This document shows positions 11,596-49,955 of a stretch of 64,000 bases of DNA, in pieces (position 1 is the stretch's first letter; the number at the start of each line of letters is the position of its first letter). The stretch comes from Onthophagus taurus (lineage: Eukaryota > Arthropoda > Insecta > Coleoptera > Scarabaeidae), in NCBI RefSeq assembly GCF_036711975.1, contig NC_091972.1:17551001-17615000 (forward strand), in the 5' to 3' direction. The notes under the pieces were generated by a model, which did no database searches, was not told the origin of the DNA, and saw only the letters and a list, made by a program, of their open reading frames with translations. A program made the position numbers and the translations under genes.

Positions 11596-11928
11596 TATAT
11601 GTACATTTTGTAAATTTTTTATGAATATTACTGATACTACAGAGTAATATTATTTTTGAAAAAAACCCTAACAGTCTATCTGAGATATAAATATTATAAT
11701 AAAATGTATAATATACATATAAAAATGTTTAACTCGTCCACTATTCCATCATTGCCTGACGCTGTTCAACTTATTCAATTTAATTTTCAGAAATCAGGTA
11801 ATACTGTGTTAAAAGAGCTAGGGTTTCTTCATCAAGTTTCTTTACATTTTTAATGCACTGCTTTCTAATATTCATTATGTATGGATCTGATGTATAAAGG
11901 AGTGTATGAAATACATCTTCGTTGGTAG

Positions 11929-12293
11929 TGTCACCAAGTACGAATTGAGCGCCGTTCGATCTGCTTGGCCATTGGTCGTCAACCCTACCTACGGATCGGA
12001 CGGTCGCCAACCAACCACAACGCCCGGTTGATAGGGTTTTACCCAAGGGCGCCTATTTAAGGCGGCCGGGTTTCCATCAGCGGTCAATTCCAACCGAACT
12101 CCGAAGCGACAACAACAGCGACAACGATAACAGCGACAACAAGCCAGCACTTCAACCGCCAATTCGAAGACGACCCCTTTCGTCTTAAAAAAAACCTTTG
12201 AGGGTTTTTTTTTTTGTACATATTGTAAATAAATTATTTCGTTTTATTCAACAACTGTTGTTTCTTCTTCGGTGCAATCCATCCTCCGTAACA
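11929..12293 (+). repeat. 5' LTR of gypsy element 1
   Basis: Runs TGTCACC..CCGTAACA, 365 bp. It contains a TATA-like tatttaagg at about 12052 and AATAAA near 12230. It carries about 28 bp more than the 3' LTR, mainly from extra gacaac-type repeats at 12110-12150. The cytosine-rich, low-T stretch from 12090 to 12180 is presumably the R/U5 leader. Confidence 0.95.
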
Positions 12294-12319
12294 ATTGGCG
12301 CCCAACGTATGGCCCGATA

Positions 12320-13234
12320 ATGCGAAAAGGACCAACAACGAGAAGCCGTTCATTGTCGACACGGCCATATCCGACGAAGGAAGATTTGGCAAGCTCTTCA
12401 GAAGAAGAGGGGCCCACCCAACCGATTAAAGAAGAGAAGAAAGGAAAAGAATCCCAAACGCAGAAGATGGGGAAGACCGCCGAAGAACCGAAACAAGACA
12501 GTGCGACCGTTCAGACACAGGTTTGCGCCCTGTCAAAGTTATTGGCCGAACATGTCTGCATCCCAAAAGCCGAGCCCCCGTGCTTCACCGGCGATTCCTT
12601 GGAGGATCCTGCAGAATTCATCAAGGTAATAAAGACATATTTCACTGACACCGGCATTCCATCAGCGGAACAAACAAAGAAAGCGACCAGTTTTCTTCGA
12701 GAAGATGCCGCTGTGTGGTGGAGTGCATTCGATGATTTGGAGATGTCCTTCGCGGAATTTCACCAAGCGCTGTTGGAAAGGTTCAACAGTCCGCAAATAT
12801 TGGCACAAGTCAACAGCCAATATTTCAGCCGCCATCAGCAGACTGATGAATCGGTGCAGGCGTTTTTGAAACGCAAACACCTGCAAGCCCGTCGTCTGCA
12901 CCGAAAACCGGACGACGACATTGGAATGATGGTTGCCCTGCTGCTACCTCAGCTACAGCTGCACCTGTCCCCCAACATACACGAGTTGCGACACAAAGCA
13001 ATTCGCACGGAGGCGCTTCTTAAGAAGTCGGGCCTCCTCAAACAACCCACAACACCATCTCCAAAGGGTAAGAAGACTCCTGAAGGGGACAACGAGGACC
13101 CCAAGAAGAAGGTGCCCCGATGCTGGTACTGCCCCGGGTACCATTGGAACCGTGACTGTCCCCTACAACGCAGCACCGGTTCGGGAAACGAAACGGCGGC
13201 CGTTCGCCCAGGACAACCCGGACGGCCGCAGTAA
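12320..13234 (+). CDS. Gag of gypsy element 1
   Basis: The open frame enters from inside the LTR, but the first ATG after the PBS is at 12320, giving 304 residues. A charged N-terminus is followed by a capsid-like helical region with the retrotransposon-gag signature AAVWWSAFDDL and FHQALLERF. A basic linker leads to one zinc knuckle at about 13121-13159. Its spacing is C-x2-C-x3-H-x4-C, one residue short of the usual C-x2-C-x4-H-x4-C. It ends at TAA and is followed after 8 nt by pol in another frame. Confidence 0.85.
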   Translation: MRKGPTTRSRSLSTRPYPTKEDLASSSEEEGPTQPIKEEKKGKESQTQKMGKTAEEPKQDSATVQTQVCALSKLLAEHVCIPKAEPPCFTGDSLEDPAEFIKVIKTYFTDTGIPSAEQTKKATSFLREDAAVWWSAFDDLEMSFAEFHQALLERFNSPQILAQVNSQYFSRHQQTDESVQAFLKRKHLQARRLHRKPDDDIGMMVALLLPQLQLHLSPNIHELRHKAIRTEALLKKSGLLKQPTTPSPKGKKTPEGDNEDPKKKVPRCWYCPGYHWNRDCPLQRSTGSGNETAAVRPGQPGRPQ

Positions 13235-13242
13235 TCTCCACA

Positions 13243-16200
13243 TTGGAGGAACCTGGTTGCTCCAGCCGCTCGACTGTAATAATCGAGGTAGCAGGAAGGC
13301 GCAGCCTAGCTCTCCTGGATTCCGGCTCGACAAGCAACTTCGTCAGCTCAAGAGCCGTCGCGTCTTATAAACCGCTGGGAGACACCTACGCCACCCAAGC
13401 GGACCCGAATGCCCAGCTGCCCATCCTCGGGAAGGCCGAAATCCAGTTCACCATCGGTGGACTCCAGTGCACCCAGCAGTTTTTGGTGGTTCCCCGACTC
13501 AGCACCCCGTTTGTTTTTGGGGATCCCTGGTTCCGCGACCAAGGGGTGATCCTCGATTTCCAACGAGGCTGTTTTCACTTCGGGAAAGAGAAGAGGGCCA
13601 CGATGTACTTCCGACGGGGCAGCCCCACTGCGCCACTGCCCGCTCTGGACGTCAGTACTATCCGTCACCAATTTCCGGACAAACACAAAGAGGCCTTTCT
13701 AACGACGCTTCGTGCCTTCCCCGACGTGTTTACCGACTCCCCTAACAGTACCACAGGGGCAACTCAGCACAAACTGGAGCTCACCGAAGGAGCAAGGCCG
13801 TTTCGACTACCGCCATACCGCTGCTCCTATACCAAAAAGGAATTTATCGCCCGTGAAGTAGAGAAGATGTTGGCGGAAGGTGTCATTGAAGCCAGTCGTT
13901 CTCCGTATTCATCTCCGATCGTACTGGTGGAGAAGAAAGATGGGGCCAAGAGGTTTTGCGTCGACTACCGTCGATTAAACCAGCAAACGGTGGACGAGTC
14001 CTCAGCGTTGCCAATCATCCACGAGACGCTGCGGGACCTCAGCCAGGCTACCGTTTTTTCGAGCCTCGACCTGCGGTCCGGATATTGGCAAATCCCAATG
14101 GAGAAGGGGTCTCGACCCTTAACCGCCTTCACAACTCCCGACGGTGCCACCTACCAGTTTCGCGTCATGCCTTTCGGATTGAAGAATGCCCCGGCGACGT
14201 TCCAGAAGTTGATGACGCAAGAAGTGCTCCCTGGATACCTCCGGAAATTCGCCCTGGTGTACCTGGATGATGTCATCCTCTACAGCAACTCCTGGGAAGA
14301 ACACCTTAGACACTTATACCTGGTGTTTAACGACTCCGGTTACACAACCTCCGGTTATCACCGGAAAAATGCCACTTGAGGGCAACAACCATCGACTACC
14401 TGGGTCACCGGATTACACCAGGAGGAGTGGAGCCCTTACCGAACCACGTCAACTCCCTCTGCGACGCATCGAGACCGTCCAACAAGAAGCAGCTGCGATC
14501 CTTCTTGGGACTGTGTAACTGGCTACGCGGGTTTATTCCACGCTGCGCCGAAGTGTTAACCCCGCTGACAGATCTCTTGCGGGGCCAGAAACAGTTTAAG
14601 TGGACAGCTGAAGCCGAGAACGCCTTTCTCGAGATTAAACAGCTACTGAGCCGCCCACTGCAACTTAGACGCCCGGACTTCACTCAACCTTTCGTGCTAC
14701 AGACCGATGCCAGCGGGAAGGGAATTGCCGCGGTCCTCTACCAAGAACCGGGAAGGAAGATCATCGCATTTGCCAGCGCCAAGTTGTCTCCCACTGAGCA
14801 GCGCTACCATGCTAACGAACAGGAATGCTTGGCAGTCGTCTGGGCGATGCGATTTTTCCGACCGTACCTGGAGGACAAAAGATTCACCCTGCGCACCGAC
14901 AGTAGAGCATTGTTATGGCTTGACACCATGAAGGACCGGAACGCCAAGTTAACCCGGTGGGCGCTCCTTCTTCAGGAATATAAATTTGACGTACAACACG
15001 TCCCCGGGGGAACAGAACGAACTCCCGGACTTTCTCTCGCGCCAACCCGGGCATGAGCCAACGACTCCTGCGGGTCACACAGCTGACTTCGACCGGATGT
15101 TTCTTCCACCATCCGCCGAACAAGAACCAAAAAACGTCCGACCCCACATCGCATGTGTCGAATTCCCTGGGCTAGCAGACGACTTAAAAGACAGTCAACG
15201 ACGAAATCCCCACAGCCAAAACCTGATTCGTACCCTGGACGGAATCAACGAGGCGGGTCCCGCAAACCCGGCGGAAGCTAGAGTCGCCGCCCAGTATTTA
15301 GTGCATGATGGGCTTTTATGGAGACGACATCCCGATGGTAACCGATTGATCGTGCCACAGGACATGCACGACCAGGTGTTGCACGCCTACCATGACGCGT
15401 CCACCGCAGGCCATCCCGGAGCTGAGGAAACCACGAGGGTCATCCTGAGGAAATACTGGTGGCTCGGCGTAGAGGAAGACGTGGCCAGACACGTCCGGGA
15501 TTGCTGGGCCTGCTCATCGCTCAAGCGGGGACCCCTACAGGAACGGGCTCCATTACGACCACGAGCGCCCACACAACCATGGGCAGTTTTGGCAGTAGAC
15601 CTCATGGGCCCATACGTGAAAACACGAGATAACAACAGGTTTGTGTTCGTTGTCACCGACCTGTTCAGTCGATGGGTGGAGGCGTTTCCGGCCGCTACCA
15701 GCAGCGCTCCGAAAATCATAAATATCCTGGAGAGTGAGGTGTTTCCCCGGTATGGTTATCCAAGGGCCATTTTATCCGACAACGGGCCTCAGTTTACCAG
15801 CGCCAACTGGGACTCCGCGCTGAGACGTTGGGGGTGCCACCACTGGACGACGCCGATATACCACCCTCAGGCCAATCCTGCGGAGAGGAGGATTCAAGAA
15901 ATAAAGAAATGCATACGGATCCAACTCCAGGGCATAAATCCAACGACCTGGGATCGACACATCAATCGGGCTCTATTCAACGTTCGGTCACGACGCAACG
16001 CGGCGACAAGAGAAACCCCCGCCGCCCTGCTGTTGGGATACGAGTTACCGCGACCTGGGGAATGGTTTCTTGAGGGCCCCCAAGATGGTCAACAGCCAGC
16101 GGCAGGACGGGCCGAGAGAAGAAGACGAGCGCACAGGAACGAGCACCGATACTGCCAGCGATACGCTGGGGCTGTACCACCACCAGAGCGGGCTCATGTA

Positions 16201-16380
16201 GCGACGCCGTTTGGTCCTCGTTGGATAGGACCCCACATGGTTATAGAGGAGGCCGGACCTACAACGTACTGGATCCGCAGACACCAGACTGCAGAGCCCA
16301 GCAAAGTCCACATCAACGACCTACGTCTGGCTCCTCCACCACATCGACACCCACCTGCGCAGCCCGAACCAGCGCCTTGA
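13243..16380 (+). pseudogene. Pol of gypsy element 1 (PR-RT-RH-IN), two frameshifts
   Basis: Aspartic protease LLDSGST at about 13312; RT with YLDDVILYS at about 14259-14285; RNase H starting TDASGKG at about 14703; integrase zinc finger HAYHDAS..CWACSSLK (15383-15520); and the DDE core with AVDLMGP, LSDNGPQF and NPAERRIQ. The C-terminus has a GPY-like GPHMVIEEAGP. The first frame runs to about 14330, the second from there to about 15010, and the third returns to the first frame through 16380. All catalytic residues remain visible. The shifts fall in the RT thumb and just after RNase H. Confidence 0.9.
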
Positions 16381-16389
16381 GGGAGGGGG

Positions 16390-16726
16390 TGTCACCAAGT
16401 ACGAATTGAGCGCCGTTCGATCTGCTTGGCCATTGGTCGTCAACCCTACCTACGGATCGGACGGTCGCCAACCGACCACAACGCCCGGTTGATAGGGTTT
16501 TACCCAAGGGCGCCTATTTAAGGCGGCCGGGTTTCCATCAGCGGTCAATTCCAACCGAACTCCGAAGCGACAACAAGCCAGCACTTCAACCGCCAATTCG
16601 AAGACGACCCCTTTCGTCTTAAAAAAAACCTTTGAGGGTTTTTTTTTTGTACATATTGTAAATAAATTATTTCGTTTTATTCAACAACTGTTGTTTCTTC
16701 TTCGGCGCAATCCATCCCCCGTAACA
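16390..16726 (+). repeat. 3' LTR of gypsy element 1
   Basis: 337 bp, same termini as the 5' LTR and near-identical apart from a ~28-bp shorter gacaac repeat and a few substitutions. It is followed directly by the GTAG target duplication. Confidence 0.95.
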
Positions 16727-34257: not shown

Positions 34258-35190
34258 ATAATAATAATAAGTTTATTGCAAAAAAAACCTTTTACATGTC
34301 AAATTAAAAAGAAATTCAAAGTTTTATAATAAATTGTATAATAACGAAATTAAAGATATTACATTATTATTACAGAAGATTTTCTCAAAAAATTCTTGAA
34401 TGGTATAGAACGCGTTTTGGCAAAGGTGGTTCTTTACAGCATTCTTCATTCTTGGAAAGGGTAGATCTCGTACCGACGCAGGTAGATGGTTAAAGAATTT
34501 AATGCCCCAATAGTTGGCAATATTTTGGGTTTTAAACAAACGATGTGTGGGGATACGCAGTTCGTTTTTGTCTCTAGTGTGATAGTTATGGGAATCACAG
34601 TTTTTTCGCAGAAGGTATAATTTCTGGTGAACGTTCTATATACAGTTGAATATACAGGGTGTCACACAAAAAACGCCCCAAGCTGTAACTCTGTCATTTA
34701 CATTTCGATTTTCATGAGCGAGGTATCAAATGATATGGTTTGATAAATACTATGATTCATGCTACAAAGAAATTTTTTCCAAAGCCATCTTCAATTTGAA
34801 GCGATTATTTAGTTTTGTCAAATTGCTCCATATATTTTTCTTCGCGTCATTGGATAGAGATTGTTTTTCTGAATCCATTAATGTACAATACATCCATTTT
34901 GAATGCAATTTTAGCAGAGAAAAGACACCTGTACATACAGGTTGTTACACAAGAATATTCTACAAATATTGTCTTACAAATATTCTAGTAGTTTTGACAT
35001 TGTAGGCAATATTGAGATAGGTTTGAAATTTTCTGGTTTGCTTGTCACCCTTTTTATATACAGGAACTATTTTAGCGACTTTTAATTCCTCAGGGAATAT
35101 TCCATGTTTGAGGCACATGTTAAAAATGTACACTAAATGAACATATAAGCTTAATATAGATTTTTTTAAGAAGGCCATAGACATTCCATA
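34258..35190 (-). pseudogene. CR1/Jockey-like LINE, 3' half (left of gypsy element 2)
   Basis: On the minus strand an RT start block (HLVYIFNMCLKHGIFPEELK, then AKIVPVYKKGDKQ) lies at 35140-35020. A C-terminal block (WGIKFFNHLPASVRDLPF) lies at 34510-34330. The 3' end is AATAAA followed by a (TTA)n tail at 34258-34275. The core RT between them is deleted or replaced by a MITE. The 5' half continues on the far side of gypsy element 2 (45169-46090). Confidence 0.7.
34654..34935. mobile_element. CAGGGTG-type MITE fragment inside the LINE
   Basis: Begins at TA|cagggtgtcacacaaaaaacg, the terminal style of the palindromic elements elsewhere in the window. A possible right end is gacacctgta near 34930. 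It interrupts the LINE between its RT and C-terminal pieces. The right border is uncertain. Confidence 0.45.
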
Positions 35191-35978
35191 TGTCACAAAC
35201 TAGCTCTCGAGAACTTCTCGTTTCCCGTAGTGGGTTTCCTAGCTAGGTCCACGGAGCGGCTCGCGTACCCAACTGTCCACGCACTACCGTTTTCTTGATA
35301 GCTAGCAATGACTGAGTTAGGGTTTGGCACACTGCATTCGTTCACTTGAAAGCAAACGGCAGTAATTTGAAATTAAGAATAAAAATAGATTGAAAGAAAA
35401 CGAAATTTCACTGCTAAAGAATAAGTTTGCTTTATTTTTGAACAAGAACGTATTATATTATATATAAAAAAAAACAACTGACAAAGGTTTTAAAAAGTAA
35501 AAATTACATGACATAAGCTATTCAACAACATCATTACGAAATTTGCCGAGGTGGTTAGCAGGTTCAATGAGAAATCGGAAGTTTAAGATTTTAATAACGC
35601 TTACCCGTTTGTTAAAGTAAAATATTCATCGAAGAAAGAGAATCCAATTCAACGAATTTTATAACTAAATTGCTATAAGTTCAAATCGCACGACTCGAAT
35701 TTAAAAACACAACAAAAACTTTAATTTCCCGGTTTCGCCCGATGCTTTTCTGTTCCAATCCCGTAACCGACTCCCCGATTTTTTCTTCATTTCTTCCCTG
35801 CTCCATCTACTCTAACTGCCACCTCGGCACATTCCTGCCAGAACCGCCTACGTAGTATTTAGTCTGGACCCTCGGTTCTCAAGACGCAACTTCGTAATTA
35901 AATTACAAAGTTCTGCCTGTATTGCGTTTTATTATTTTTTTTTAATCGCTTTCGAATCCCAAAATGCGGTTTGTTACA
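35191..35978 (-). repeat. 3' LTR of gypsy element 2
   Basis: 788 bp. On the element strand it runs TGTAACAAACC..GTTTGTGACA. It is identical to the other LTR. Confidence 0.97.
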
Positions 35979-36652
35979 TCCCTCCCACCTTTTTAAAAGA
36001 AGGCTCCCTTAAGAGCCTTATTTATGATACCAAAATGAACAATACAAACCGCATTCTAGTATTTCCGATATCTACTTGAAATCTTAAGAATCAACAATCT
36101 CAATCGTTACAAAAAGTCTACATCTAAACACTTCTCAGTAACATAGAGTCCAATTTTCACATAATTTTAATTACGAAAACACATTTTTATTGATATTCTT
36201 TTGAAACAAAAAGTCAATTTTTTTTTTTTTTTTACATATGCATTTTAGTCACTTTCTTAAGAGTCTTTCACCGATTTTAACACTTAATTTATTAAAAATT
36301 ATTTTAAAAGTTGTAACATAGTCCTTCACACCAAAACGTTTAAGAACTACCACGCACGCACAGTCAAGTAGTCGAAGTAGAGAAGCTGTCATCACATCTC
36401 GGGGCGACCTGACGTGTGCTACTACATTTCTTCGGTGGAAAATAAACATGTTCTCAGCTGGCTCCATTTATGTGTCGACGATAAGACATTGTTGATTTAT
36501 TTAGAATGTTTTTTTTTTATTTAATGATTATTTACAAATGATAGGAATCGTATATTTCAGGATTTTTTTTGAATGAAGGACAATTTCGGAGTAAGTATTC
36601 TTGGTTTAATAGGATCTGTAACAGACGAAGTTGTCTGAATCTTGGTTACCAT

Positions 36653-37498
36653 TTATTTCCGCATCCAACTTGGAGAGGTCGGTACCTCAGAATATATATT
36701 TGAAACCATCACTTCAGGGCTTGTGGAATTGGTTGCCTCAGGAACTATGTTAGTCGGAGTTTCTGGCGAAGCAAGATCCTCACCCCTTCTCTGATTAAGA
36801 AGCCACATCGTAAAATTTTTCCACAACTGGCCAAGATGACGATACCGCATCCCAAGGTTTTATATATTGCGTAGCCATTCAATATCACGCTAGCGAGTCC
36901 CTTTACGAAACACAATAAAACAATCACTCGTGCGATAACGTGCTCTTAGCAAATTTACGCAACTCTTCCGCATGAAATAGTTGAATCCAGTTCTTATTTT
37001 TCTGTCTTCTTTCCCTGGATTTTTCTAATAATGACATTGTTTATAGCTGATCGTTCCAAGCCGACTTGTACTATTTCTTGTGCTTGTCTGACGTCTTCGT
37101 TGTTATAAATTTCGGCCACTCCCAAATTCATAATGGTACTAAATTTTGATTTCTGAATCTTCATAAGGTAGAAGTCCATCAGGAGGTGTCTGGGATACCT
37201 GCAGTGGAGTTAAGGCTACCCAGGGCTTTTCAATCTGATACATTGGTGAATTAATGAGGTTGCGGTCAACCTGGTCTGCATAGTCCAGGAGTACATGTGT
37301 CATTGGCGACTCAAAATAGGACCGGTTATCCGTATCAGAGACAGGAAGTTCATGGTAGCAAGTATACGTTTTTCTTACTTGCACTCTCTTTGGTACACAT
37401 TTCAATATGTACAGGACTTCTCCGATTGCACGGCCGACATAACTCGTTTCATTCTTAGCGAGCAAACTAACGGTGGTTGGTGATAACGGGGCCAACAA
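36653..37498 (-). pseudogene. Env-like third ORF of gypsy element 2 (not continuous)
   Basis: Downstream of pol, minus-strand frames 37498-37139, 37179-36994 and 36927-36653 together look like the C-terminal half of an insect retrotransposon envelope glycoprotein. The features are a Cys-containing block with a CYHELPV motif, a region ending in a PYEDS segment, a hydrophobic helix (36920-36800) and a short tail. The frame changes twice and no upstream signal peptide was found, so the ORF is either broken or needs splicing. This identification comes from pattern memory only (errantivirus- or chuvirus-like glycoproteins). Bases 36000-36650 and 37500-37980 are AT-rich and unassigned. Confidence 0.45.
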
Positions 37499-37982
37499 TA
37501 AGCGATTTTTATGTGTTTCTATATACGATTTGTCGGTGAATCCGGGCTCTTTGGACTATTTGCACTTGTAACATGTTTTCTACATAATTGGACCTTATTT
37601 GTGAACAATTTCCAACGTTTTTTTTTTTTAGCGATATGAGACTAATATTAACACTACGGGTGCTACAATCGTATGTGATAATAAATTGTTAATCCTATAT
37701 TTATGTAGGCTCCAATCGCCAATAAAGTAGTTAAGAGCGCTGAAACAAACAAAAACAAAAATCCGATTTTCCGGTGTTTAGTAATCAACAACAGAATAGA
37801 CAATAAAAGCTATTAATTATATATTTTTTTTTTTATTATTTAAAAAAAAATAAATAAATTTATTTTCTTTTTAATTTTAGTATTTAACTTATTAATTTAC
37901 TTATTTTAATATTAATATTTTTATTTATTTATTAGTTATTTATTTTTTTTTTCTTTTTTTTTTTACCTGTATACCTTATACT

Positions 37983-40900
37983 TTACCTATACCTAGCTGG
38001 AAGTTTTATGGCTCTCCTCTCCCGTCGTATTGCCAACGGTTCTTCAAGGGGTTCATCTATTAATTCTGGTGCCTTAATAATAATGCTATCGTCCTCACGT
38101 TCTCTTTCTATTTCTGAAGGGTTTTCAGAAGGTTCAGCTATTGACTCCAACAACTCCTTACTCATACATTCATTTTTCCCTTCCAGATTTTCTGCTGTAC
38201 TAGTATCATCACTCTCTTCTAGAATTAATCGTCTCGGACATATATTAATTTTTGGGCAGGGGGTCTCATTTAGTAAATCTGTTACTCCTGTATTTTTTCG
38301 AAAAGTCAGATCCGGTGTATGTAAACTGATTATCGGCATATGTGGATCAACATACCGGTCTTCGTTTATTTCTTCGAGGTGTACATTCGAATCTAGGCTT
38401 TTACACTCTTTCGGGGTTGAGTCTTTATTAGTTCGAAATGATTTCAATCTATTACTATGTACAATAGATTTTAGCTTTCCGTTTACTGATGTAATTTCGT
38501 AGTTCTCTGGTCCTTTAATTTTTGTAATCATGTACGGTCCTATCCAAGGTTGGGCTAATTTTCTATTTAGACCTGGTTTTATAGATGTGTCTTTTAAGAG
38601 TACCAACTCTCCTACGTAAAAATCTCTGTGCTTACTTCTTTTATTATAATACTCAGCCTGTCTTCGAGCGGCAAACTGCAAACTTTCAAAAACCGTCTCA
38701 TACACGTGGTTCATTCGCGCTGCCAATTCCGTCACATAGTTCTCATCACAGTCGTACTTACACCTGGAGGGTCGGAGAAAAACATCCACTGGTAATTCCA
38801 TTTCCCTGCCGTATAACAAAAAGTGGGGGGTATAGCCCGTACTACTATGCACCGTTGATCTGTACGCCAGAAGAACATAGGGTAGCCATTCATCCCAGGT
38901 TCTTTGGTCCTTTTTAACATAGTGAGATAGTACGTCCTTGATCACCCGATGACTTCTCTCGATAAGACCATTGCACTCGGGATGATACGGTGTGGTTTGT
39001 ATTTTGTCGATATTTAATAGCTTACAAATTTCCTTCATGAGTGACGACACAAAATTTGTACCCTGATCGGTGAGCAACTGCAGAGGAGTACCGTGGCGAC
39101 TTACTATTTGCGTTACAAAAGCTCGAGCCACAGTATCAGCCTTCTGATCAGGTAAGGCTACTGCCTCTAAATATTTGGTGAAATAGTCCTGGAACGTAAG
39201 TATATACTTGTTTCCTTTGTATGTTGTTGGTAACGGACCCACTATGTCCATTGAACTTCTTTCGAATGGCTTTCGAACAGTTGTAAATTTTTGCAAGGGT
39301 GCTCTAGACATATGGGGGGAAGTTTTACGTCTATTGCATGACTCACAATTCGAACAATACTTTTTAACATCACGTGTCATAGACGGCCAAAATACCCTAT
39401 CCTTAAGTAAAGCTAATGTTTTCGCTTGACCGCCATGACCTGCAAATGGTAAATCGTGGTAATCATGCAAAGCCTTCTGCACAAATGATTTCGGCAACAC
39501 TAGTACTTCTTTTCCTAACTCATCAGTTTTAAATAAGAGCTTATCATTATCTATGAAATAACTATCCCTAAGATCTTTGTTTGATGAAAGCGAATCCCGT
39601 ATTTCAATGCAAAACTCGTCCTTATCTTGTTCTTTCAAAATAACATTTTTATCCCAAACTGGCGTTGCTATATTTTCCTGTATTTTACATAGTGTTTTGT
39701 TTTTAACAAAAGGTAATTTATATACCATTATCATGGTATTCGTTCCCTCAAAACATTCTCTTAATTCTTCTTTAACTAGGCTCCACTTTAGTTTATCGAG
39801 ACCACATCCTATTCTGGGTATTGCCAAATATCTCTCCCCAGATTTATTCATTTCCTCCCGTAACGTTTCTAGACACTGTCTCAACATGTGGTACGTTGGT
39901 TTATGGTAGTATTCGTCCTTTGTAATTAAATGGTATATTTTTCGTTTCTCCGCTATTTGCGGTACTATGTCACCAACTCCTTTCTCCTCGGATCTTAATT
40001 TTTCAACGGAGCCAAATCGCTTTTTAAATTCCTTTGCAATACCAGCTCCCATCGCAAAATCAGCCGAAACGCAATGAGCTAATACCCAACCTTGGGGAGC
40101 ATCAAACAAATTTCCCTCTACTTCATTAATGCATAACTTATCTTTCTCATCCTTTCGGATTAGGGAAACTATACTGTTTCGGCTGAGAGCATCCACGTTT
40201 CCATGCTTTCGGCCCGGTCTGTGGATAATCTCGAAGTCATACTCCATTAGCATTAAAGCCCATCGTGCTAGTCTCGAGCTCGGGTCTTTGATATTCATCA
40301 ACCATTTCAATGGTCTGTGGTCTGTTATGATAGTGAAACGGCGTCCATATAAGTAGCACCGAAATTGCTTTATCCCAAATATGACAGCAAGACACTCTTT
40401 TTCGGTAGTCGAATAGTTTAGCTCAGCCTTCTTTAGTCCTCTACTAGCGAAAGCCACAGGGCGTTCATTTCCCTCTCTCACCTGACTAAGTATAGCACCT
40501 AATCCTGTGTTACTCGCGTCTGTAGCCAAGATGAAAGGCTCATTGAAATCTGGGAAAATTAATACCGATTCTGATGTTATCGCGGCCTTTAAGCTTTCCA
40601 CCGCTTCCAATTGCTCTTTTTCGAATTTAAACGCGACATCTTTGCGCGTTAACTTCGTAATTGGGGCCGCTAATCGGGTAAAGTCCGGTATAAATTTCCT
40701 ATACCATCCCACCAGCCCCAAAAATTCTCTACAATTCCTAACGTTTTTTGGAACGGGGAAATTCTGTATCGAATTGATTTTTCCCGGATCCGGTTGAACG
40801 CCTTGGGCAGATATTATGTGACCAAGATAAGACACCTTTGGGACCGCGATCTGGCTTTTCTCCATCTTAAGTTTTAGTCCTGCATCTCGGATTCTATCAA

Positions 40901-42929
40901 AAATAGTTTGTAGTTTGTTCACATGATCGTCGACACCCGTTCCATTGAAAATTATTATATCATCTAAATAGACGAGGCAATGAGTACCTAATAATCCCGA
41001 AAATGTAAAATTCATGAAGCGCTGAAACGTCGCGGGGGCATTTACTAGCCCAAACATCATTCGGTTGCTCTCATAGTGCCCGAACGGCGTGGAGAAAGCT
41101 GTTTTTTCTCGGTCATTCTTCTCCACTTCTATTTGATGGTACGCCGACGCTACATCAAACACGCTAAACAGATTAGTCTTCCCTAACACATCTACTGTCT
41201 CTTGCAGATTCGGCAACGGGTACACATCTTTCTTAGTTACCGCGTTGAGTCCTCGGTAATCTATACATACTCGGGGTTTTATCGATCCGTCTGACATCTG
41301 CCGGTTAACGATTACAACCGGCGCCGACCAGGGTGAATGAGATGGTTTAATAATATTTTTCTTTAACAGCTTATCTATTTCTTCCTGTAAGAACTCTCGT
41401 TGATGAACTGGTACTCTATATGGACGTTTACTAATTGGTGGTACATTCTCAGTAATAATTTGATGTTTGACCTTGTGAGTTTTCGTAAAACTTTCGTCAC
41501 CATTGTCGAAAATATCTCGATAATCTAATAACAATTTTTCAACTTTCTCTTTGTCTGTTTCTGATAGATGAGCCAATGAGATCGATTCCAAAAATGTTGA
41601 TGTCTCTTCGTTTTCTCTTATCATTGCAACCATCTCGCTTTTTACTTCTGGATTAACCTTCTTATTCGGTATTATACAACTATACGCTCTAGCTATCTCT
41701 GTATGCTTTGGAATCGTTATTGATTCTTCTCCTATGTTTGCAACCAATACTCGTGGTTTTTCCCCTCTTGGAACAGCACATCTTCCTATTAATATATTTG
41801 GATGAAAGGGCGTTTTACTTGATTCAATTACAATGTCGTTCTTTTTATTATTATTACGCACGTCAACCGCTAACACCTTCTCTGTAAACGGTTCAACGAT
41901 ATCTTCTTCAACGGTGATAACAGGATTACATTGACAGTTTTTATCATTGTTTATTTCGTTTTCTTCCGTATCTTTCATATCAGTTTCATTCTTAATTTCT
42001 TCTTCATTTTCGCATTCCCTTAACTCATTATTTTCTGCAACAATTCGTGACTTCTGCGTCACTAATCCACTACTTCCGCTGGGGTCTTCTTGAATTTCGC
42101 CTTCTCGGCTCTCCCTTTGACTTTCTTTAGTCTTTAATTTCTCTATTTTTTTTTCTTCTTCTTCTATTCTTCTATCGTGACAATCCCTGTCCACATTTAC
42201 ATCGATCATTCGGCGATACCCGGTTTCATAGTCATCGTTGCTATCTGAACTTAACTCCCCAAACTCTTCTACCAAAACATTTACCTCGAGTGGCATAAAC
42301 CTCGTTCGTTGATTCGTCTCCTCGGTTACGTACTTTTCTTCGACTTCACGTTTCTTTATTAGATACTCCGTCCTCGTTACTTGCGGTTCGATTAAATTTA
42401 TTTCCGTTGATAATTCTGATACATAATCATTCGCGAGTTCCAAATTATCTACCTGACCTACACCCAAACCTGATGTGGTGGATTCTCTACATTCAAGGGA
42501 ATCTGTAGACACAATACGCTGCGACCCCAAATTGACGTTCATGATACTTGAAAATCTAACATCGATACCTCCTACATTTAGGCTACCTTTACTAAAATCA
42601 ATAATTACATTGTGAAATTCCATAAAATCGCGTCCCAATACTCCATCTGTGGTTAAAGGCAAATTGTCCAAACATACATAGCACGAGAAATCTCCTAAAT
42701 TCGATTCATTCCCCAATGAAAAATTTAACTCAGTCGTACCTAGCATGTCAATTCCGTGTCCCGTTATTCCCGAAATACTAAAATCTCCCGACATAGGTTT
42801 AATTGCTTCTGAAATTACACAAGAATGTTTAATTATCGTAACAGGAGAACCGGTGTCTACTAACATCGTTATTGGTTTGTTTTTATTGAACAATTTAATA
42901 GAAAAAGGTGTTTCAAAAATGAGTCTCAT
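37983..42929 (-). CDS. Pol polyprotein of gypsy element 2: PR-RT-RNaseH-Macro-IN
   Basis: 1648 codons without interruption. Residues 20-100: aspartic protease (MLVDTGSPV; flap and GVLGRDF). Residues 180-440: charged spacer. Residues ~490-740: RT with CLVYLDDIIIF at 651-661. Residues ~800-915: RNase H (LATDASNTGLG). Residues 932-1073: a complete macrodomain. Residues ~1130-1205: integrase H2C2 finger. Residues ~1215-1335: DDE core (SSMDIVGPL, LTDQGTNFV, NGLIERSHR). Residues ~1440-1500: GPY/F-type module (WIGPYMITK). A Glu-rich tail follows. The pol frame is open upstream of this ATG across the gag stop in the -1 frame, so a gag-pol fusion by -1 frameshifting is likely. All catalytic residues of PR, RT, RH and IN are visible. 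Confidence 0.96.
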   Translation of the reverse strand: MRLIFETPFSIKLFNKNKPITMLVDTGSPVTIIKHSCVISEAIKPMSGDFSISGITGHGIDMLGTTELNFSLGNESNLGDFSCYVCLDNLPLTTDGVLGRDFMEFHNVIIDFSKGSLNVGGIDVRFSSIMNVNLGSQRIVSTDSLECRESTTSGLGVGQVDNLELANDYVSELSTEINLIEPQVTRTEYLIKKREVEEKYVTEETNQRTRFMPLEVNVLVEEFGELSSDSNDDYETGYRRMIDVNVDRDCHDRRIEEEEKKIEKLKTKESQRESREGEIQEDPSGSSGLVTQKSRIVAENNELRECENEEEIKNETDMKDTEENEINNDKNCQCNPVITVEEDIVEPFTEKVLAVDVRNNNKKNDIVIESSKTPFHPNILIGRCAVPRGEKPRVLVANIGEESITIPKHTEIARAYSCIIPNKKVNPEVKSEMVAMIRENEETSTFLESISLAHLSETDKEKVEKLLLDYRDIFDNGDESFTKTHKVKHQIITENVPPISKRPYRVPVHQREFLQEEIDKLLKKNIIKPSHSPWSAPVVIVNRQMSDGSIKPRVCIDYRGLNAVTKKDVYPLPNLQETVDVLGKTNLFSVFDVASAYHQIEVEKNDREKTAFSTPFGHYESNRMMFGLVNAPATFQRFMNFTFSGLLGTHCLVYLDDIIIFNGTGVDDHVNKLQTIFDRIRDAGLKLKMEKSQIAVPKVSYLGHIISAQGVQPDPGKINSIQNFPVPKNVRNCREFLGLVGWYRKFIPDFTRLAAPITKLTRKDVAFKFEKEQLEAVESLKAAITSESVLIFPDFNEPFILATDASNTGLGAILSQVREGNERPVAFASRGLKKAELNYSTTEKECLAVIFGIKQFRCYLYGRRFTIITDHRPLKWLMNIKDPSSRLARWALMLMEYDFEIIHRPGRKHGNVDALSRNSIVSLIRKDEKDKLCINEVEGNLFDAPQGWVLAHCVSADFAMGAGIAKEFKKRFGSVEKLRSEEKGVGDIVPQIAEKRKIYHLITKDEYYHKPTYHMLRQCLETLREEMNKSGERYLAIPRIGCGLDKLKWSLVKEELRECFEGTNTMIMVYKLPFVKNKTLCKIQENIATPVWDKNVILKEQDKDEFCIEIRDSLSSNKDLRDSYFIDNDKLLFKTDELGKEVLVLPKSFVQKALHDYHDLPFAGHGGQAKTLALLKDRVFWPSMTRDVKKYCSNCESCNRRKTSPHMSRAPLQKFTTVRKPFERSSMDIVGPLPTTYKGNKYILTFQDYFTKYLEAVALPDQKADTVARAFVTQIVSRHGTPLQLLTDQGTNFVSSLMKEICKLLNIDKIQTTPYHPECNGLIERSHRVIKDVLSHYVKKDQRTWDEWLPYVLLAYRSTVHSSTGYTPHFLLYGREMELPVDVFLRPSRCKYDCDENYVTELAARMNHVYETVFESLQFAARRQAEYYNKRSKHRDFYVGELVLLKDTSIKPGLNRKLAQPWIGPYMITKIKGPENYEITSVNGKLKSIVHSNRLKSFRTNKDSTPKECKSLDSNVHLEEINEDRYVDPHMPIISLHTPDLTFRKNTGVTDLLNETPCPKINICPRRLILEESDDTSTAENLEGKNECMSKELLESIAEPSENPSEIEREREDDSIIIKAPELIDEPLEEPLAIRRERRAIKLPARYR
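39711..40136 (-). other. TARG1/OARD1-type macrodomain embedded in gypsy pol
   Basis: Pol residues ~932-1073. The motifs run in family order: EGNLFDAP (VKGDLFACP in human OARD1), LAHCVSADFAMGAGIA (LAHCISEDCRMGAGIA), FKKRFG, YHLITKDEYYHKPTY (YYLITKKRASHKPTY), IPRIGCGLDKLKW (MPRIGCGLDRLQW) and a closing MVYKL. The catalytic Lys (K84 in OARD1) is pol K1004 and the catalytic Asp (D125) is pol D1045, with the same 41-residue spacing. OARD1 removes ADP-ribose from glutamate/aspartate and deacylates O-acyl-ADP-ribose. The domain is in frame between RNase H and the integrase finger, with no intron or stop. Confidence 0.93.
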
Positions 42930-42997
42930 ATGCGGTATAATCTTATTTACAGTTGGGTCATAATTTTCGACAGGCTTTATTGACCTATCGTAACCCT

Positions 42998-44113
42998 TTA
43001 ATTCGAGTCTCCTGCGGTTCGGGTATTCACCGCAGGACGATATGCGTTTAAAGAGTTCGTCTCATTGTACCTGTTATTCGCGGGAATTTGCGGTGATCTA
43101 GTAACCCGCGGGGGCGATTGTCGATCCGTATAATTGTTATCGTTTACATTACGTCGCGGTTCGTTTTGATAATCTCGCTGTTGGTAATAAAAATTTCTTC
43201 GGTCGCGGTTGTTTACCTTATCGGATGAATGACCCTCTTGAAAACTAACACGGCGTGGGAGGTCACGCCTTTGGTCGTAGTTCGGTTGCATTTTATTTGA
43301 AGGTAACCTACATTGTTTACTAATATGACCGGGTTTTCCGCAATTATAACAATTAAACACGGTTGTCTGTGCATTACAAAATTTCGCAAAATGACCTGAC
43401 TTTCCGCATCTGTAACATAATCTAGTAGTCGTATCCACCGCTCCTATATTAATTCGATTTGGACGATTTCGGTTTGTAGCCTGATTTAATTCTTCAAATG
43501 ATGCGATCTCTTCCGCTTTATCTAGAGTTAAATCCGTTTCACGCATAAGTAACGTTCCTACCATTTGACTTAATTCACGTTTCATTCCCACTTTAAATTG
43601 ACTTAGTGCTAATTCATTAATTTTTATAATAACTCCCGGTAATTCTGCTGCTGTTACTTTCGCTTTGTCCTCCTCGATAATCTCATTCGCGATAGACTTT
43701 ATACTGGTTACGTAAGACGACACGGATTCATCGTGTTTTTGGAACGCGCGCATTAATTTCCCTAGTGCTTCTCCCGGTAATTTTCGCGGGGTAAACTTTT
43801 TAATTAATTTTTCCCGTAATTCTACATATGTGACCTGATTACTCTGTAAGTTTGTTTCCGCCTTATAAAATTTATAAGCCTCTCCACTCAATCGATACCT
43901 AACAATATGAAGCATTTGTGTTTTATTCCAATTATCTAAGATCGCACGTTGCTCTAACCTTTCAAAATACAGTTTAACATTTTCTCGACCTGAAAAAGAT
44001 TCTACCGTTCCTGCTAACATTCCTAAAGAAATCGGTGTAACCATCATTGGTGTTGTTAGAATAGAACCTTCAGCTTCGCCCGGAATTTCTGCTACGTTAT
44101 CATCGGCGTTCAT
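42998..44113 (-). CDS. Gag of gypsy element 2
   Basis: 371 residues. The helical capsid-like N-terminal part contains the retrotransposon-gag pattern (GTVESFSGRENVKLYFERLE; YKFYKAETN; KLMRAFQKHDESVSSYV). Two consecutive CCHC knuckles of canonical C-x2-C-x4-H-x4-C spacing follow (CYRCGKSGHFAKFC and CYNCGKPGHISKQC, near 43420-43310), then an Arg/Asn-rich tail. It ends 69 nt before the first pol ATG, but the pol frame overlaps it in -1. Confidence 0.92.
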   Translation of the reverse strand: MNADDNVAEIPGEAEGSILTTPMMVTPISLGMLAGTVESFSGRENVKLYFERLEQRAILDNWNKTQMLHIVRYRLSGEAYKFYKAETNLQSNQVTYVELREKLIKKFTPRKLPGEALGKLMRAFQKHDESVSSYVTSIKSIANEIIEEDKAKVTAAELPGVIIKINELALSQFKVGMKRELSQMVGTLLMRETDLTLDKAEEIASFEELNQATNRNRPNRINIGAVDTTTRLCYRCGKSGHFAKFCNAQTTVFNCYNCGKPGHISKQCRLPSNKMQPNYDQRRDLPRRVSFQEGHSSDKVNNRDRRNFYYQQRDYQNEPRRNVNDNNYTDRQSPPRVTRSPQIPANNRYNETNSLNAYRPAVNTRTAGDSN

Positions 44114-44380
44114 AATGATTAAGATTTTTATTATTTTTAATGATAGTCACAAAATATTCACCTACTAACCCCTGCACGACAAAATTTATTACTTTATACG
44201 TACAAACAAAAGAATGATTGACAAAACATTAAAGAAAATTAACTCGAAATCTTTAAATTTTGAAATACGAAATAGTAACAAAAACAAAACAAAAAAAAAA
44301 TAAATAAATAAAAAAATAACAATTAGATTTTATTTCTACTTTTACATCAAATTGTGCCAACCCCACACCTGACACCAGTT

Positions 44381-45168
44381 TGTCACAAACTAGCTCTCGA
44401 GAACTTCTCGTTTCCCGTAGTGGGTTTCCTAGCTAGGTCCACGGAGCGGCTCGCGTACCCAACTGTCCACGCACTACCGTTTTCTTGATAGCTAGCAATG
44501 ACTGAGTTAGGGTTTGGCACACTGCATTCGTTCACTTGAAAGCAAACGGCAGTAATTTGAAATTAAGAATAAAAATAGATTGAAAGAAAACGAAATTTCA
44601 CTGCTAAAGAATAAGTTTGCTTTATTTTTGAACAAGAACGTATTATATTATATATAAAAAAAAACAACTGACAAAGGTTTTAAAAAGTAAAAATTACATG
44701 ACATAAGCTATTCAACAACATCATTACGAAATTTGCCGAGGTGGTTAGCAGGTTCAATGAGAAATCGGAAGTTTAAGATTTTAATAACGCTTACCCGTTT
44801 GTTAAAGTAAAATATTCATCGAAGAAAGAGAATCCAATTCAACGAATTTTATAACTAAATTGCTATAAGTTCAAATCGCACGACTCGAATTTAAAAACAC
44901 AACAAAAACTTTAATTTCCCGGTTTCGCCCGATGCTTTTCTGTTCCAATCCCGTAACCGACTCCCCGATTTTTTCTTCATTTCTTCCCTGCTCCATCTAC
45001 TCTAACTGCCACCTCGGCACATTCCTGCCAGAACCGCCTACGTAGTATTTAGTCTGGACCCTCGGTTCTCAAGACGCAACTTCGTAATTAAATTACAAAG
45101 TTCTGCCTGTATTGCGTTTTATTATTTTTTTTTAATCGCTTTCGAATCCCAAAATGCGGTTTGTTACA
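44381..45168 (-). repeat. 5' LTR of gypsy element 2
   Basis: 788 bp, same as the left LTR at every position compared. The PBS follows on the element strand at 44377-44360. Confidence 0.97.
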
Positions 45169-46090
45169 CATATATGTCCTCACTGCTTTTTGGTGCAAAT
45201 TTCTTTACTATCGACATAATAACATGACGCATTGTTTTGTATTGATAGAGTCTTCATATAGTTGTTTGCTAAATCCGAGTTTACTTGATTTCCAATTGTT
45301 TTAATGTATTCATTAAACTCTTCAGGTGTAACATCAATTTTGCTCTTCGTTTTCTTGTTTACCTTTAATTCATTATTTATTAATTGCCATACCTTCTTTT
45401 GCTTGTTTGGTTTGGTGCATTATAGATCTCATTTTCGTTTCGTAATTCATTTTTATATTTATTATAAATTCTGTATGCCTCATCTGTTTTTGTACATTGC
45501 GCAAGAATACTTAAAATTTTTATGCTGTTTATTCTATCCTTTATTCTTGTTGGTAAATATTGGTTGGAACGCGTACTAGATTGCAATGTAATTTCTCTTT
45601 TAGGACAACATTTAAGTTAAAGACGGATATTAAATGACGAAAACAGCATAGTAGGTGAGATCCAATCATTTTCGTTAAAGCAGTATCGGGATATTTCTGC
45701 ATTAAAACGGTAAGTGTTTTCATGATTCATGTTCCTACTTTTAATAACTTATTTGCTTACAGGAATCTCCTTCGGCGCACAAACAGCTCTAATAATTGTG
45801 CATAATGGTCCGACAGATGAAGATTGGTCGTTTGTGAATAGTATTGATCTTTGCTGCAATTTGTAATAATATTGTCAATACAAGAACGAGATGTTGATGT
45901 TTTTCTCGAAGTTTCGAAAAATACACAGTGTAAATTAAAACTCTCAGAAATGTCTTGCAGTTGCACAACTTCATACTTTCCCATGACTTGTACATTTATA
46001 TTAAAATCTCCCGCAATAAATACTTTTTTATCTCTAATTTCTTCTTCTATGTAACATATCTTGAAATCTGTCAAAAAATATTTCAAGATT
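45169..46090 (-). pseudogene. CR1/Jockey-like LINE, 5' half (right of gypsy element 2)
   Basis: The minus strand reads an endonuclease C-terminus: VFIAGDFNIN, then SRSCIDNIITN and LSDHYAQ (46040-45800), with an alternative frame showing a frameshift. Next come linker-like, lysine-rich frames up to the LTR border (RIKDRINSIK, EAYRIYNKYKNEL). The RT continues left of the gypsy element at 35190. It is decayed and inactive. Confidence 0.7.
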
Positions 46091-46639: not shown

Positions 46640-49600
46640 TTAGTATTGTCAGTGGGGCTCGGGAATACTGTCTAAGAATTAATGAAAGGAAAACTCAAAT
46701 GATCCTATTTGATCCTACTAAATTGAAAAAAATCTTTATCGACAGATTCTATCACATTTCGCTGGGAAATGTGCCTCTTCCTCTGAGTGGGTCTGTTAGG
46801 AACCTTGGCCTGATTATTGATGAGTCACTAAACTTTAGGGAACATGTTAATATGCTGTTGGAGCGGGCTTATGGCTCTCTGAGATTGATTTTCAGTAATC
46901 GACATTGCCTTGATAATTCTGTTAAAAAACTCTCTCGTCTTATCACATTTTAATTATTGTGATAACATTTATGGTTCATTTATTGACTCCCGCCATCAAC
47001 AGAAAATTCAAAAGCTCCAGAATTCCTGTGTCCGGCTGATCTTTGGGTTAAGAAAGTACGATCATGTCTCTTTTGCTTTTAAGAAACTTAAATGGATGAA
47101 TATAAAGTCGCGTCGGTATGTTCACAAAGCATGTTTTTATTATAAGATTATTACGGAGTGGAGCCCCCCTTATCTATTCGACAGAATTAACTTTAGAACG
47201 GACGTACACAATGTTAATATCCGGTTCAGGGGTAGGTTAACTCCTCCTTCCCATCGTTTGGAATTTTTTAAGAGATGCTTCTCATATCAAATTACATCTG
47301 TTTATAATAATCTTCCTAAACATTTAGTGGGTCTACCCTTGAACCGATTTAAGAAATCTTTGCGGGACTGGCTTTTGGGTGTGTGACTGTGGGTTTGTGC
47401 TTGGTGGCCTCGGGGGATGAGATTCTTGTATGATATCTTTTGGACACTCTATAGTATAGTATGTGTGGCTAACTATTGTGCATGTTCGACATTAGCCTAT
47501 GACGGTGCTCAGTTGTCATTGAATTTTTTTTAGTTTATTATTGTTTTTGATTTGGGTTTGAGTGGTAGAACAGGTGTTACCTGAACTCCGCCTAAATTCA
47601 GGCTTTAATGTATTTTATTTTACTTTAGCATGTACTTATCATTTTCTTTACCTTTGTACAGGGTGTCCCGTTAAGCGTACGGAGCGGCTGTATCTCAACA
47701 ACGGTAAGGCCTAGAGGTTTGGGAAAAAAATCTTTATAAGCAAAGTGGGCAAGAGAAATAGCTGGAAATTATTTTGAAGTTCGTAATTCGACCGCTAGGG
47801 GGCGTAACTGCCATAGAGAAACATAAAATTCCCGCTATCTCAGAAAGTTAGACGATGAGCTATAACTTTGACAACATCATTTAGTAGCTTGGATAATACC
47901 ACATCGCTTTTGTTTTGCAATATTTTTCATATCTGTCATAATATGGGAGGGGGAGGCCAATGCGTTTTCAAATGTTTACATTTTAATATCTCCTGGACCA
48001 TTCAACCGATTTGAATATTCTTGGTCTTGTTTGAAAGAGCATTTGATGCTCTTTTAAAAGATATTTTCAGTAAGACCGCTTGGTTTAAAACAAATAAGCT
48101 AGAGGGCGTTATCTGCAGCGGTTACATATTTTTGTGATTTTTGAAAAAAAGTTAAATGGAACGGTACTATTTACTTCACAGACCGTTAATCACCATAAAA
48201 TTTGCTAAATATTAGTGAAAACCGCATCTCGATATCTCCATCCATTCTCGAATTATAAAAGAAAATGTTAAAAATTCGTATATCTTAATCGGATCAAGTT
48301 ACCTTAGGAAGAGATAAGAGATAACAAAAATTTTATTATCTAGAACCTTCCTTCACACTTTATCCAAGCTTACAACTGCTTCAAAACTACCTTTTGAGGC
48401 GTGTTGAAAAGCCAACGGATCAATGAAACATCAACAATGATAATAAAACAAAATAAACCGAAACACTTAGAACAACTTAAATTTTTGGCAAAAATAGCTC
48501 ACTAATGTTCGAAATGTCTTACATAAACCTCGATGCATTTATTTAATCTAGTTTCGACGAAAAAAAAGCGCTGCTAAGTCTCTTCCCTGAACACGTTTTT
48601 ACTGGTATTTAGTGTTTTGTCATATTTTCCCTGGTTATTGGTTTTTCTTGAAAAGTCAGGTCATTTAGTCTACCCAATAGATAAAGGGGTGAAAGCAATG
48701 TGGGTTTTGCTCGAACCAAGAATGCATATTATGCAAGTTTACATCAGCTTGTGGACAGATGCTTCATGCATCCATAGCATTTGTGATAAAAGGTTTGGAT
48801 TTGCCCAAATCATATTTAAAAGTCAATGGTAATAGTTCAGTCTGTTATCATAATCGGTATCTGTTAAGGCCTGATGTAAAACAACGTGGTGGAGATATTA
48901 TTCTCTTGAGAACTCTTGTGGACAATTGTTTTCGGAGTTCCCAGATTATGTGGGATCACATTGCGCGCCAATATGATTTACGAATTCATAGAGACGTCTG
49001 AATGGGCTACACGTTGCCAGTTTTCCGTAATCGCTAAGTCAATCTTAAAAACACTTCTAGAGAAAAATGTCTTTCTTTGTCGTAATTGCATTGCACATTT
49101 TTGCCATGCAGTTGCATCGTATTCGAAACATTGAAAATAAATCATCATACGCTCTATCATACGCTTCTGCGTTAGTAAATGACATGTTTACAGTTACCAT
49201 GGTAATGTGATTTGTTTCTCTCGATGAGGTAACTGGATCCGATTGATGGCACTCGAGTTTTTAACATTTTCTTCTATAACTCGAGAACAGGTGGCGATAT
49301 CGAGATGCGGTTTTCACTAAAATTTAGCAAATTTTAAGGTGACTAAGGGTCTGTGAAGTAAATAGTATCGTTCCATTTAACATTTCTTCAAAAATCACAA
49401 AAATATGTAATCGCTGCAGATAACGTCCTCTAGCTCATTTGTTTTAAAGCAGACGGTCTTACTGAAAATATCTTTAAAAAGAGCATAAAATGCTCTTTCA
49501 AACAACACCGAAAACATTCAAATCGGTTGAATGGTCTAGGAGATATTAAAATGTAAACATATGAAAACGCATTGGCCTCCCCCTCCCTTATTATGACAGA

Positions 49601-49955
49601 TATGAGAAATATCGCAAAACAAAAGCGATGCGGTATTATCCAAGCTATTAAATGATGGTGTCAAAGTTATAGCTCATCGTCTAAGTTTCTGAGATAGCGG
49701 CAACTTTATGTTTCTCAATGGCAGTTACGCCCCTAGCGGTCGAATTACGAACTTCAAAATAATTTCCAGCTATTTCTCTTGGTCACTTTGCTTATAAGGA
49801 TTTTTTTCCCAAACCTCTTGGCCTTACCGTTCTAGAGATACAGCCGCTCCGTACGCTTAACGGGACATCCTGTATATGTATAATTTTTTTTTAAAGTTTG
49901 TACTTGCTTGATGAAGTCTGAATAAAGTTATTATTATTATTATTTATTTCGGATA
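46640..49955 (+). mobile_element. CR1/L2-like LINE 3' half, inserted in Tc1 and itself interrupted
   Basis: The plus strand encodes the RT C-terminal part: REYCLRINERKTQMILFDP, SVRNLGLIIDESLNF, KLQNSCVRLIFGLRKYDHVS and a final NNLPKHLVGLPLNRFKK segment ending with TGA near 47386. A frame change lies at about 46910. The 3' UTR continues to 47656, is interrupted by the palindromic element at 47659-49872, and resumes to an AATAAA and a (TTA)n tail at about 49921-49955. It is 5'-truncated. Confidence 0.8.
47659..49872. mobile_element. 2.2-kb palindromic element, CAGGGTGTCCCG ends, TA target
   Basis: The left end is cagggtgtcccgttaagcgt. The right end, reverse complemented, is caggatgtcccgttaagcgt. 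TA lies on both sides (47657-47658 and 49873-49874). Each arm is about 750 bp (47659-48360 and 49170-49872) with shared blocks such as gaagttcgtaattcgaccgc, tcggttgaatggtc and aaatatgtaa. The central ~850 bp (48360-49160) is unique and holds no recognised transposase; short plus-strand frames at 48617-49134 look like decayed coding sequence. Confidence 0.85.

Follow-up and report, generated by a model that had tools for sequence, protein, structure and literature searches.

Which function could an ADP-ribose hydrolase fulfil inside the Pol polyprotein of a retrotransposon? This question is raised by a stretch of 64,000 nucleotides from the dung beetle Onthophagus taurus (NCBI RefSeq assembly GCF_036711975.1, contig NC_091972.1, positions 17,551,001 to 17,615,000 of the forward strand), which we call the window. 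On its minus strand, a Ty3/gypsy long terminal repeat (LTR) retrotransposon of 9978 bp (35191-45168) carries a macrodomain within its pol frame. Judged from its sequence, this domain is a TARG1/OARD1-type macrodomain with an intact-looking active site, and on balance we consider it somewhat probable that it erases ADP-ribose applied by host PARPs from the replication intermediates of the element itself.

The assignment to TARG1/OARD1, already made in a preliminary description of this DNA, is borne out by the Pfam Macro profile (E 1.1e-5, 25.7 bits, above the cut-off of 22 bits) and by human OARD1 (C6orf130), the best relative among the solved structures (phmmer E 1.9e-34, 122 bits, 138 residues aligned, i. 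e. positions 4-141 of 142). The next distinct solved protein, 5m31, follows with an E-value of 1.3e-7. The motifs MGAGIA, which forms a GAG-type ADP-ribose loop, LITK and GCGLD are all present. The catalytic Lys and Asp are residues 73 and 114 of the domain and K1004 and D1045 of Pol, as stated earlier, if counting starts at the first Met; they are 41 residues apart, just as in the human chain. We take the Asp to be the equivalent of human D125. In TARG1, the K84A exchange results in a loss of function and in inactivity in rescue tests (PMC8501950). The general Pfam Macro profile is a weak tool for these domains: a search of the whole genome at E 0.001 yielded seven rows that included a sister copy but not the window copy.

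The Pfam matches in Pol follow the order protease, reverse transcriptase (RT), RNase H, macrodomain, zinc-binding H2C2 domain of the integrase, integrase core (rve) and Integrase_p58_C. The location proposed earlier was thus found as described: RNase H lies upstream, and the zinc finger of the integrase (H2C2) and rve lie downstream. The coordinates of the domain (39711..40136, minus strand) are correct. The uninterrupted frame of 1648 codons is obtained by counting from the Met at codon 45 of 1692. No second macrodomain was found by hmmsearch in the protease-RT stretch of the window element (E 0.19).

The domain is widespread in the beetle. A protein search of the 290.8-Mb genome at E 0.01 returned at least 77 macrodomain rows, the first 22 of which represent the window family, are 99-100% identical and are spread over seven contigs. 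The 1692-codon frame is found in 17 of these 22 copies; in 16 of them the macrodomain is free of stops, and one (L027) has a stop within it. The other five copies lie in shorter frames. Both the catalytic Lys and Asp are present in all 22 complete rows, in one of them with a stop between the two residues. An assembly artefact or a private chimera, a possibility raised in the preliminary description, is ruled out for all practical purposes by these 22 near-identical rows and by the existence of further, diverged lineages, and again by the same RT-RNase H-macrodomain-integrase order in P0007 and P0008, which come from other sequence sources; no support for such an artefact was found. The search for this order in other elements, suggested at the same time, was therefore successful both in diverged O. 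taurus lineages and in P0007/P0008.

By our own tally of the 63 fetched loci (L008-L070), the domain is preceded by RT or RNase H and followed by H2C2 or integrase in 46, seven have a pol match on one side only, and six carry the macrodomain on the protease side of RT (in L054 with a protease but no RT match, in L038 with an RT but no protease match). Eight more rows of the protease-side family, outside the fetched set, each have an RNase H row on their 3' side. The remaining four loci are without a pol match: L048, L066, the host OARD1 gene (L049) and L065 (C3:27701148 region), a broken partial copy of this gene. Since L065 has retained the same short intron as L049, it was probably copied as DNA.

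Three arrangements can be distinguished, using two Pol slots in this genome, RNase H-integrase and protease-RT. In type I (window, L030, L032, L044), RNase H is followed by the macrodomain, an ordinary linker of about 75 residues and H2C2. In type II (L038-L040 and, by domain order, also L052-L054), the macrodomain stands between the protease and RT, which is followed by RNase H; in the single type II copy that was checked further (L040/L161), the RNase H-integrase linker is plain. In type III (L041, L055, L056, L058-L063, P0007/P0008), the macrodomain replaces the ordinary linker between RNase H and integrase. A further position is found in the fish proteins P0004 (Puntigrus tetrazona) and P0006 (Triplophysa rosa), in which an OARD1-type macrodomain is located C-terminally, after the integrase part; P0004 holds the integrase core PF00665, and in our reading both proteins are retrovirus-like. 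The RNase H-integrase linkers of L071, L073, L074, L075 and L078 have no sequence likeness to macrodomains; when their predicted model was compared with known structures, one of the two comparisons gave weak matches of a macro-like kind.

Where does the domain come from? In the macrodomain tree, the domains of the elements and animal OARD1 lie on the same side of a well supported branch (100/98), together with P0002, P0003 and the phage-contig domain L090. The domains of the window, L030, L031 and L032/L033 cluster (99/94); the protease-side domains join the host OARD1 (94/83), and these in turn join L041 and P0007/P0008 (98/97). The earlier suggestion that a host OARD1 gene was captured is thus supported as far as the animal-type origin is concerned. 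However, host OARD1 is not the nearest relative of the window domain in the macrodomain trees, and therefore the window domain is not a recent capture from O. taurus. A midpoint-rooted tree of RT, RNase H and integrase pieces (34 rows from copies of this genome, the second element of the window and P0007/P0008) places the window, L030, L047, the L032 group and the L042/L044 group together (96/84), and the type III lineages, L072, L077 and group C in another group (100/100). A single clade of all gypsy macrodomains was not rejected in the approximately unbiased (AU) test (p-AU 0.277, 0.148 without the protease-side rows and 0.106 with phage-contig domains added), although slots and junctions differ between the arrangements. 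As far as the sequences tell, the capture of an animal-type OARD1 is old, and possibly there was more than one.

Phage contigs often carry OARD1-type macrodomains: in IMG/VR, 89 of 105 pattern-matching stretches were OARD1-type relatives, of which 80 were kept (L081-L160). An origin of the element domains from phages was rejected, as 21 of the 22 phage-contig domains included in the tree (out of 77 that could be extracted) lie apart from the animal and element domains, the exception being L090, which stands beside P0002. None of 82 fetched IMG/VR loci had a match to protease, RT, RNase H, H2C2 or integrase at E 1e-3 beside the macrodomain. In P0002 (594 aa, from a 93-kb contig), the OARD1-type macrodomain is located downstream of PF00752/PF00867 domains (XPG nuclease); in P0003 and P0005 it occurs together with a PF10686 domain.

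The element has an envelope remnant of 138 open codons between pol and the 3' LTR, of a type known from negative-strand viruses. The identical piece is present in 22 genomic rows and adjoins 21 of the 22 complete macrodomain copies, L017 being the exception. Since the same broken piece is shared across the family, the envelope probably broke before the window family spread. By our reading of the coordinates and by likeness to the window piece, in all nine rows of the type II (45%) group the macrodomain is followed, on its own strand and at a distance of 4.0-4.3 kb, by an open frame that matches the envelope piece and is 516-659 codons long; a downstream match is also found in eight type I relatives (L030, L032-L037, L045). 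Chuvirus-like glycoproteins have been reported near Gypsy fragments, with no clear capture by Gypsy according to that report (PMC10084718). In the window family, the macrodomain was retained although the envelope broke, and this suggests an intracellular role.

What could this role be? A reverse-transcribing particle exposes single-stranded DNA and DNA ends. In the explanation that we favour, a TARG1/OARD1-type ADP-ribosyl hydrolase, taken from an animal gene and presumably produced within Gag-Pol by -1 frameshifting, would be carried into the particle together with the neighbouring RNase H and integrase. There it would strip the ADP-ribose set by host PARPs from single-stranded cDNA, from DNA ends or from acidic residues in the proteins of the particle. 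Being linked to these two enzymes, it might in this way keep the cDNA, or the proteins bound to it, free of the modification. Published work describes fitting activities: TARG1 strips ADP-ribose from thymidine in single-stranded DNA in a K84-dependent manner (PMC8501950), it clears ADP-ribose from Glu and Asp, and it removes the mark that PARP1 places on single-stranded DNA at unligated fragments and 3' overhangs (PMC11102865). Among these candidate substrates we place nucleic acid slightly ahead of protein. The persistence of the domain after the breakage of the envelope and the use of the same Pol slots by dUTPase fit a role in the particle.

For the comparison of lineages, the proportions of nonsynonymous and synonymous differences (pN and pS) are reported, because the NG86 synonymous distance (dS) was saturated for many diverged pairs; no conclusion can be drawn from RT, RNase H or integrase pairs in which frameshifts raise pN to near 0.7. 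The macrodomain of L030 is 68% identical to that of the window, with a pN of 0.194 and a pS of 0.775 (integrase of the same pair: 0.068 and 0.891), indicating that the domain is constrained between the lineages, but less so than the integrase. Five observations weigh against a kept ADP-ribose eraser: (i) Between the window and L032, pN/pS is 0.43 for the macrodomain and only 0.15 for RNase H and 0.21 for integrase, so the domain is the faster-changing one. (ii) The 22 young copies carry one synonymous and five changing variants in the macrodomain, one of them a stop, and no constraint is visible (synonymous/changing: RNase H 5/0, RT 3/6, integrase 3/2, H2C2 1/1). (iii) SQG replaces GAG in the ADP-ribose loop of L031-L037 and P0007/P0008. 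(iv) L044 has an Asn in the place of the catalytic Asp. (v) In type III the macrodomain decayed while the elements multiplied, showing that the enzyme is not indispensable in this clade. For the pair L038-L039, in which L038 is damaged, pN/pS of the domain is 0.85.

These observations bring up the idea that the macrodomain is a structural filler, a folded spacer that separates RNase H from integrase and can dispense with catalysis. The decayed type III domains do stay in frame at the same place and still match the profile (L055, which has lost the Lys, E 7.9e-24; L061, 2.2e-18; L063, 1.7e-23), TARG1 is the best structural match of the predicted fold of these relatives led by L061, and pN is well below pS between L055 and L060 (0.024 and 0.097); the lack of visible constraint in the young copies would fit as well. 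Yet the window lineage and L030 have retained the whole active site despite their deep divergence, and we regard a pure spacer as unlikely. The same retention of Lys and Asp, residues that a mere reader of ADP-ribose would not need, speaks against the proposal that the domain binds ADP-ribose at chromatin or DNA breaks and thereby guides or tethers the neighbouring integrase, a task performed by chromodomains in other gypsy elements. This proposal has in its favour that the domain of the window lineage precedes the integrase, as well as the ADP-ribose complexes among the solved human TARG1 entries, as judged from the entry titles. In type II, however, the domain precedes RT, away from the integrase, and the one copy checked (L161) has a plain RNase H-integrase linker; moreover, proteolysis may separate macrodomain and integrase. 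A reader function is thus quite improbable. Even less can be said for an enzyme acting on O-acetyl-ADP-ribose or a similar small molecule without any connection to PARPs: the name 'O-acetyl-ADP-ribose deacetylase 1' used by PDB depositors for OARD1 hints at such an activity, but the fusion into Pol and its presence there in several lineages would be left unexplained, making this explanation very improbable.

Beyond the proposed removal of PARP marks by the window element, a wider scenario can be put forward tentatively, as a possibility that we doubt more than we believe: many gypsy elements of animals may belong to a broad group, so far mostly overlooked, in which an old TARG1-type macrodomain sits where RNase H and integrase meet, with the enzyme kept in some lineages, dead or half-dead but still folding in one clade, and reduced to a macro-like fold without sequence likeness in L071, L073, L074, L075 and L078 of that clade; retroelements might then have acquired ADP-ribose erasers more than once, in three different Pol slots, as a counter to host PARPs.

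The element that carries the domain is young. TG..CA LTRs, a short target-site duplication, a polypurine tract, and protease, RT, RNase H and integrase after a zinc-knuckle gag identify it as Ty3/gypsy. The heptamer TTTAAAC in the gag-pol overlap is in phase for a -1 shift, and the macrodomain is thus expected within Gag-Pol. All features are compiled in the table.

Table. Features of the macrodomain-bearing Ty3/gypsy element (positions in the window)
Feature	Position	Strand	Evidence or remark
Target-site duplication TATG, 4 bp	35187-35190 and 45169-45172		outer flanks of both LTRs
3' LTR, 788 bp, TG...CA	35191..35978	-	0 mismatches to 5' LTR across 788 bases
Polypurine tract preceding 3' LTR	35979..35994	-	read from sequence
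Remnant env, Monjiviricetes-type fusion glycoprotein, 138 open codons, broken	37142..37555	-	PF24664 E 1e-26
pol frame, 1692 codons stop to stop, 1648 from first Met (codon 45)	37983..43061	-	
Integrase_p58_C	38442..38540	-	Pfam E 2.1e-7
Integrase core (rve)	38979..39272	-	Pfam E 7.5e-14
Integrase zinc-binding H2C2	39318..39494	-	Pfam E 7.8e-22
TARG1/OARD1-type macrodomain	39711..40136	-	Pfam, phmmer and active-site spacing
Catalytic Asp codon	39795..39797	-	
Catalytic Lys codon (TARG1 K84 equivalent)	39918..39920	-	
RNase H (RT_RNaseH)	40239..40550	-	Pfam E 2.3e-42
Reverse transcriptase (RVT_1)	40812..41279	-	Pfam E 2.2e-20 (above cut-off) and 3e-5 (below); match split in two by the pieces used for the profile search
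Aspartic protease (RVP)	42618..42884	-	Pfam E 6.7e-5, above cut-off
gag frame, CCHC zinc knuckle	42998..44146	-	zf-CCHC E 2.5e-10; Retrotrans_gag E 3.8e-4, under its cut-off
TTTAAAC heptamer within gag-pol overlap	43046..43052	-	computed phase suits -1 frameshifting (putative)
Putative primer-binding site, directly inside 5' LTR	44361..44380	-	read from sequence
5' LTR, 788 bp	44381..45168	-	identical to 3' LTR

Elsewhere in the window, a second gypsy element (about 11928-16726, plus strand) has gag, RT, RNase H and integrase in separate frames and direct repeats about 4.4 kb apart; its GC content is 53-56%, as compared to about 27-37% across most of the window. A large inverted repeat is formed by 47657-48278 and 49254-49874, whose paired arms measure 145 nt (95% complementarity) and 480 nt (92%).

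How does the element relate to known systems? The window domain resembles TARG1/OARD1 (C6orf130) over nearly its entire length and in its active site; there, it is a small free protein, whereas here it is embedded in the Pol of a retroelement and known from sequence. Alphaviruses and other RNA viruses carry ADP-ribose erasers of another macrodomain subfamily, which share the fold but stand outside the Pol of any reverse-transcribing element. The DarG antitoxin, whose TARG1-like macrodomain reverses DNA ADP-ribosylation (PMC8501950), is bacterial and a weaker match to the window domain (5m31). The dUTPase of retroviruses and of rotifer and basidiomycete LTR retrotransposons occupies variable Pol slots, protease-RT, RT-integrase and after integrase, according to PMC5408684; these are the same kinds of slot, filled with another enzyme and another chemistry. 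The preliminary description was right in its caution about prior reports: macro-domain open reading frames have been recorded in epsilon-like endogenous retroviruses of fish (Basta et al. 2009, as cited in PMC4977317). Those are, however, another kind of element. P0004 and P0006, which share the OARD1-type domain, are retrovirus-like rather than gypsy and carry it after the integrase, whereas the window domain lies before H2C2. Among the literature matches listed, in which subscription papers were thinly covered, there was no account of a macrodomain inside a gypsy Pol, and a word search of the Troyka-element paper (PMC12440569) and the rotifer-element paper (PMC5408684) found no word that starts with 'macro'. 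Macrodomain-bearing retroelements are thus already known from fish endogenous retroviruses, and the gypsy Pol would be a new setting.

Should the domain prove active, LTR retrotransposons would join RNA viruses, phages and some fish retroviruses as carriers of ADP-ribose erasers, in this case built into the replication polyprotein. This would suggest that ADP-ribosylation of DNA or protein hinders reverse transcription or integration in insects, an idea that can be tested by comparison, as a single genome holds domains ranging from intact to decayed.
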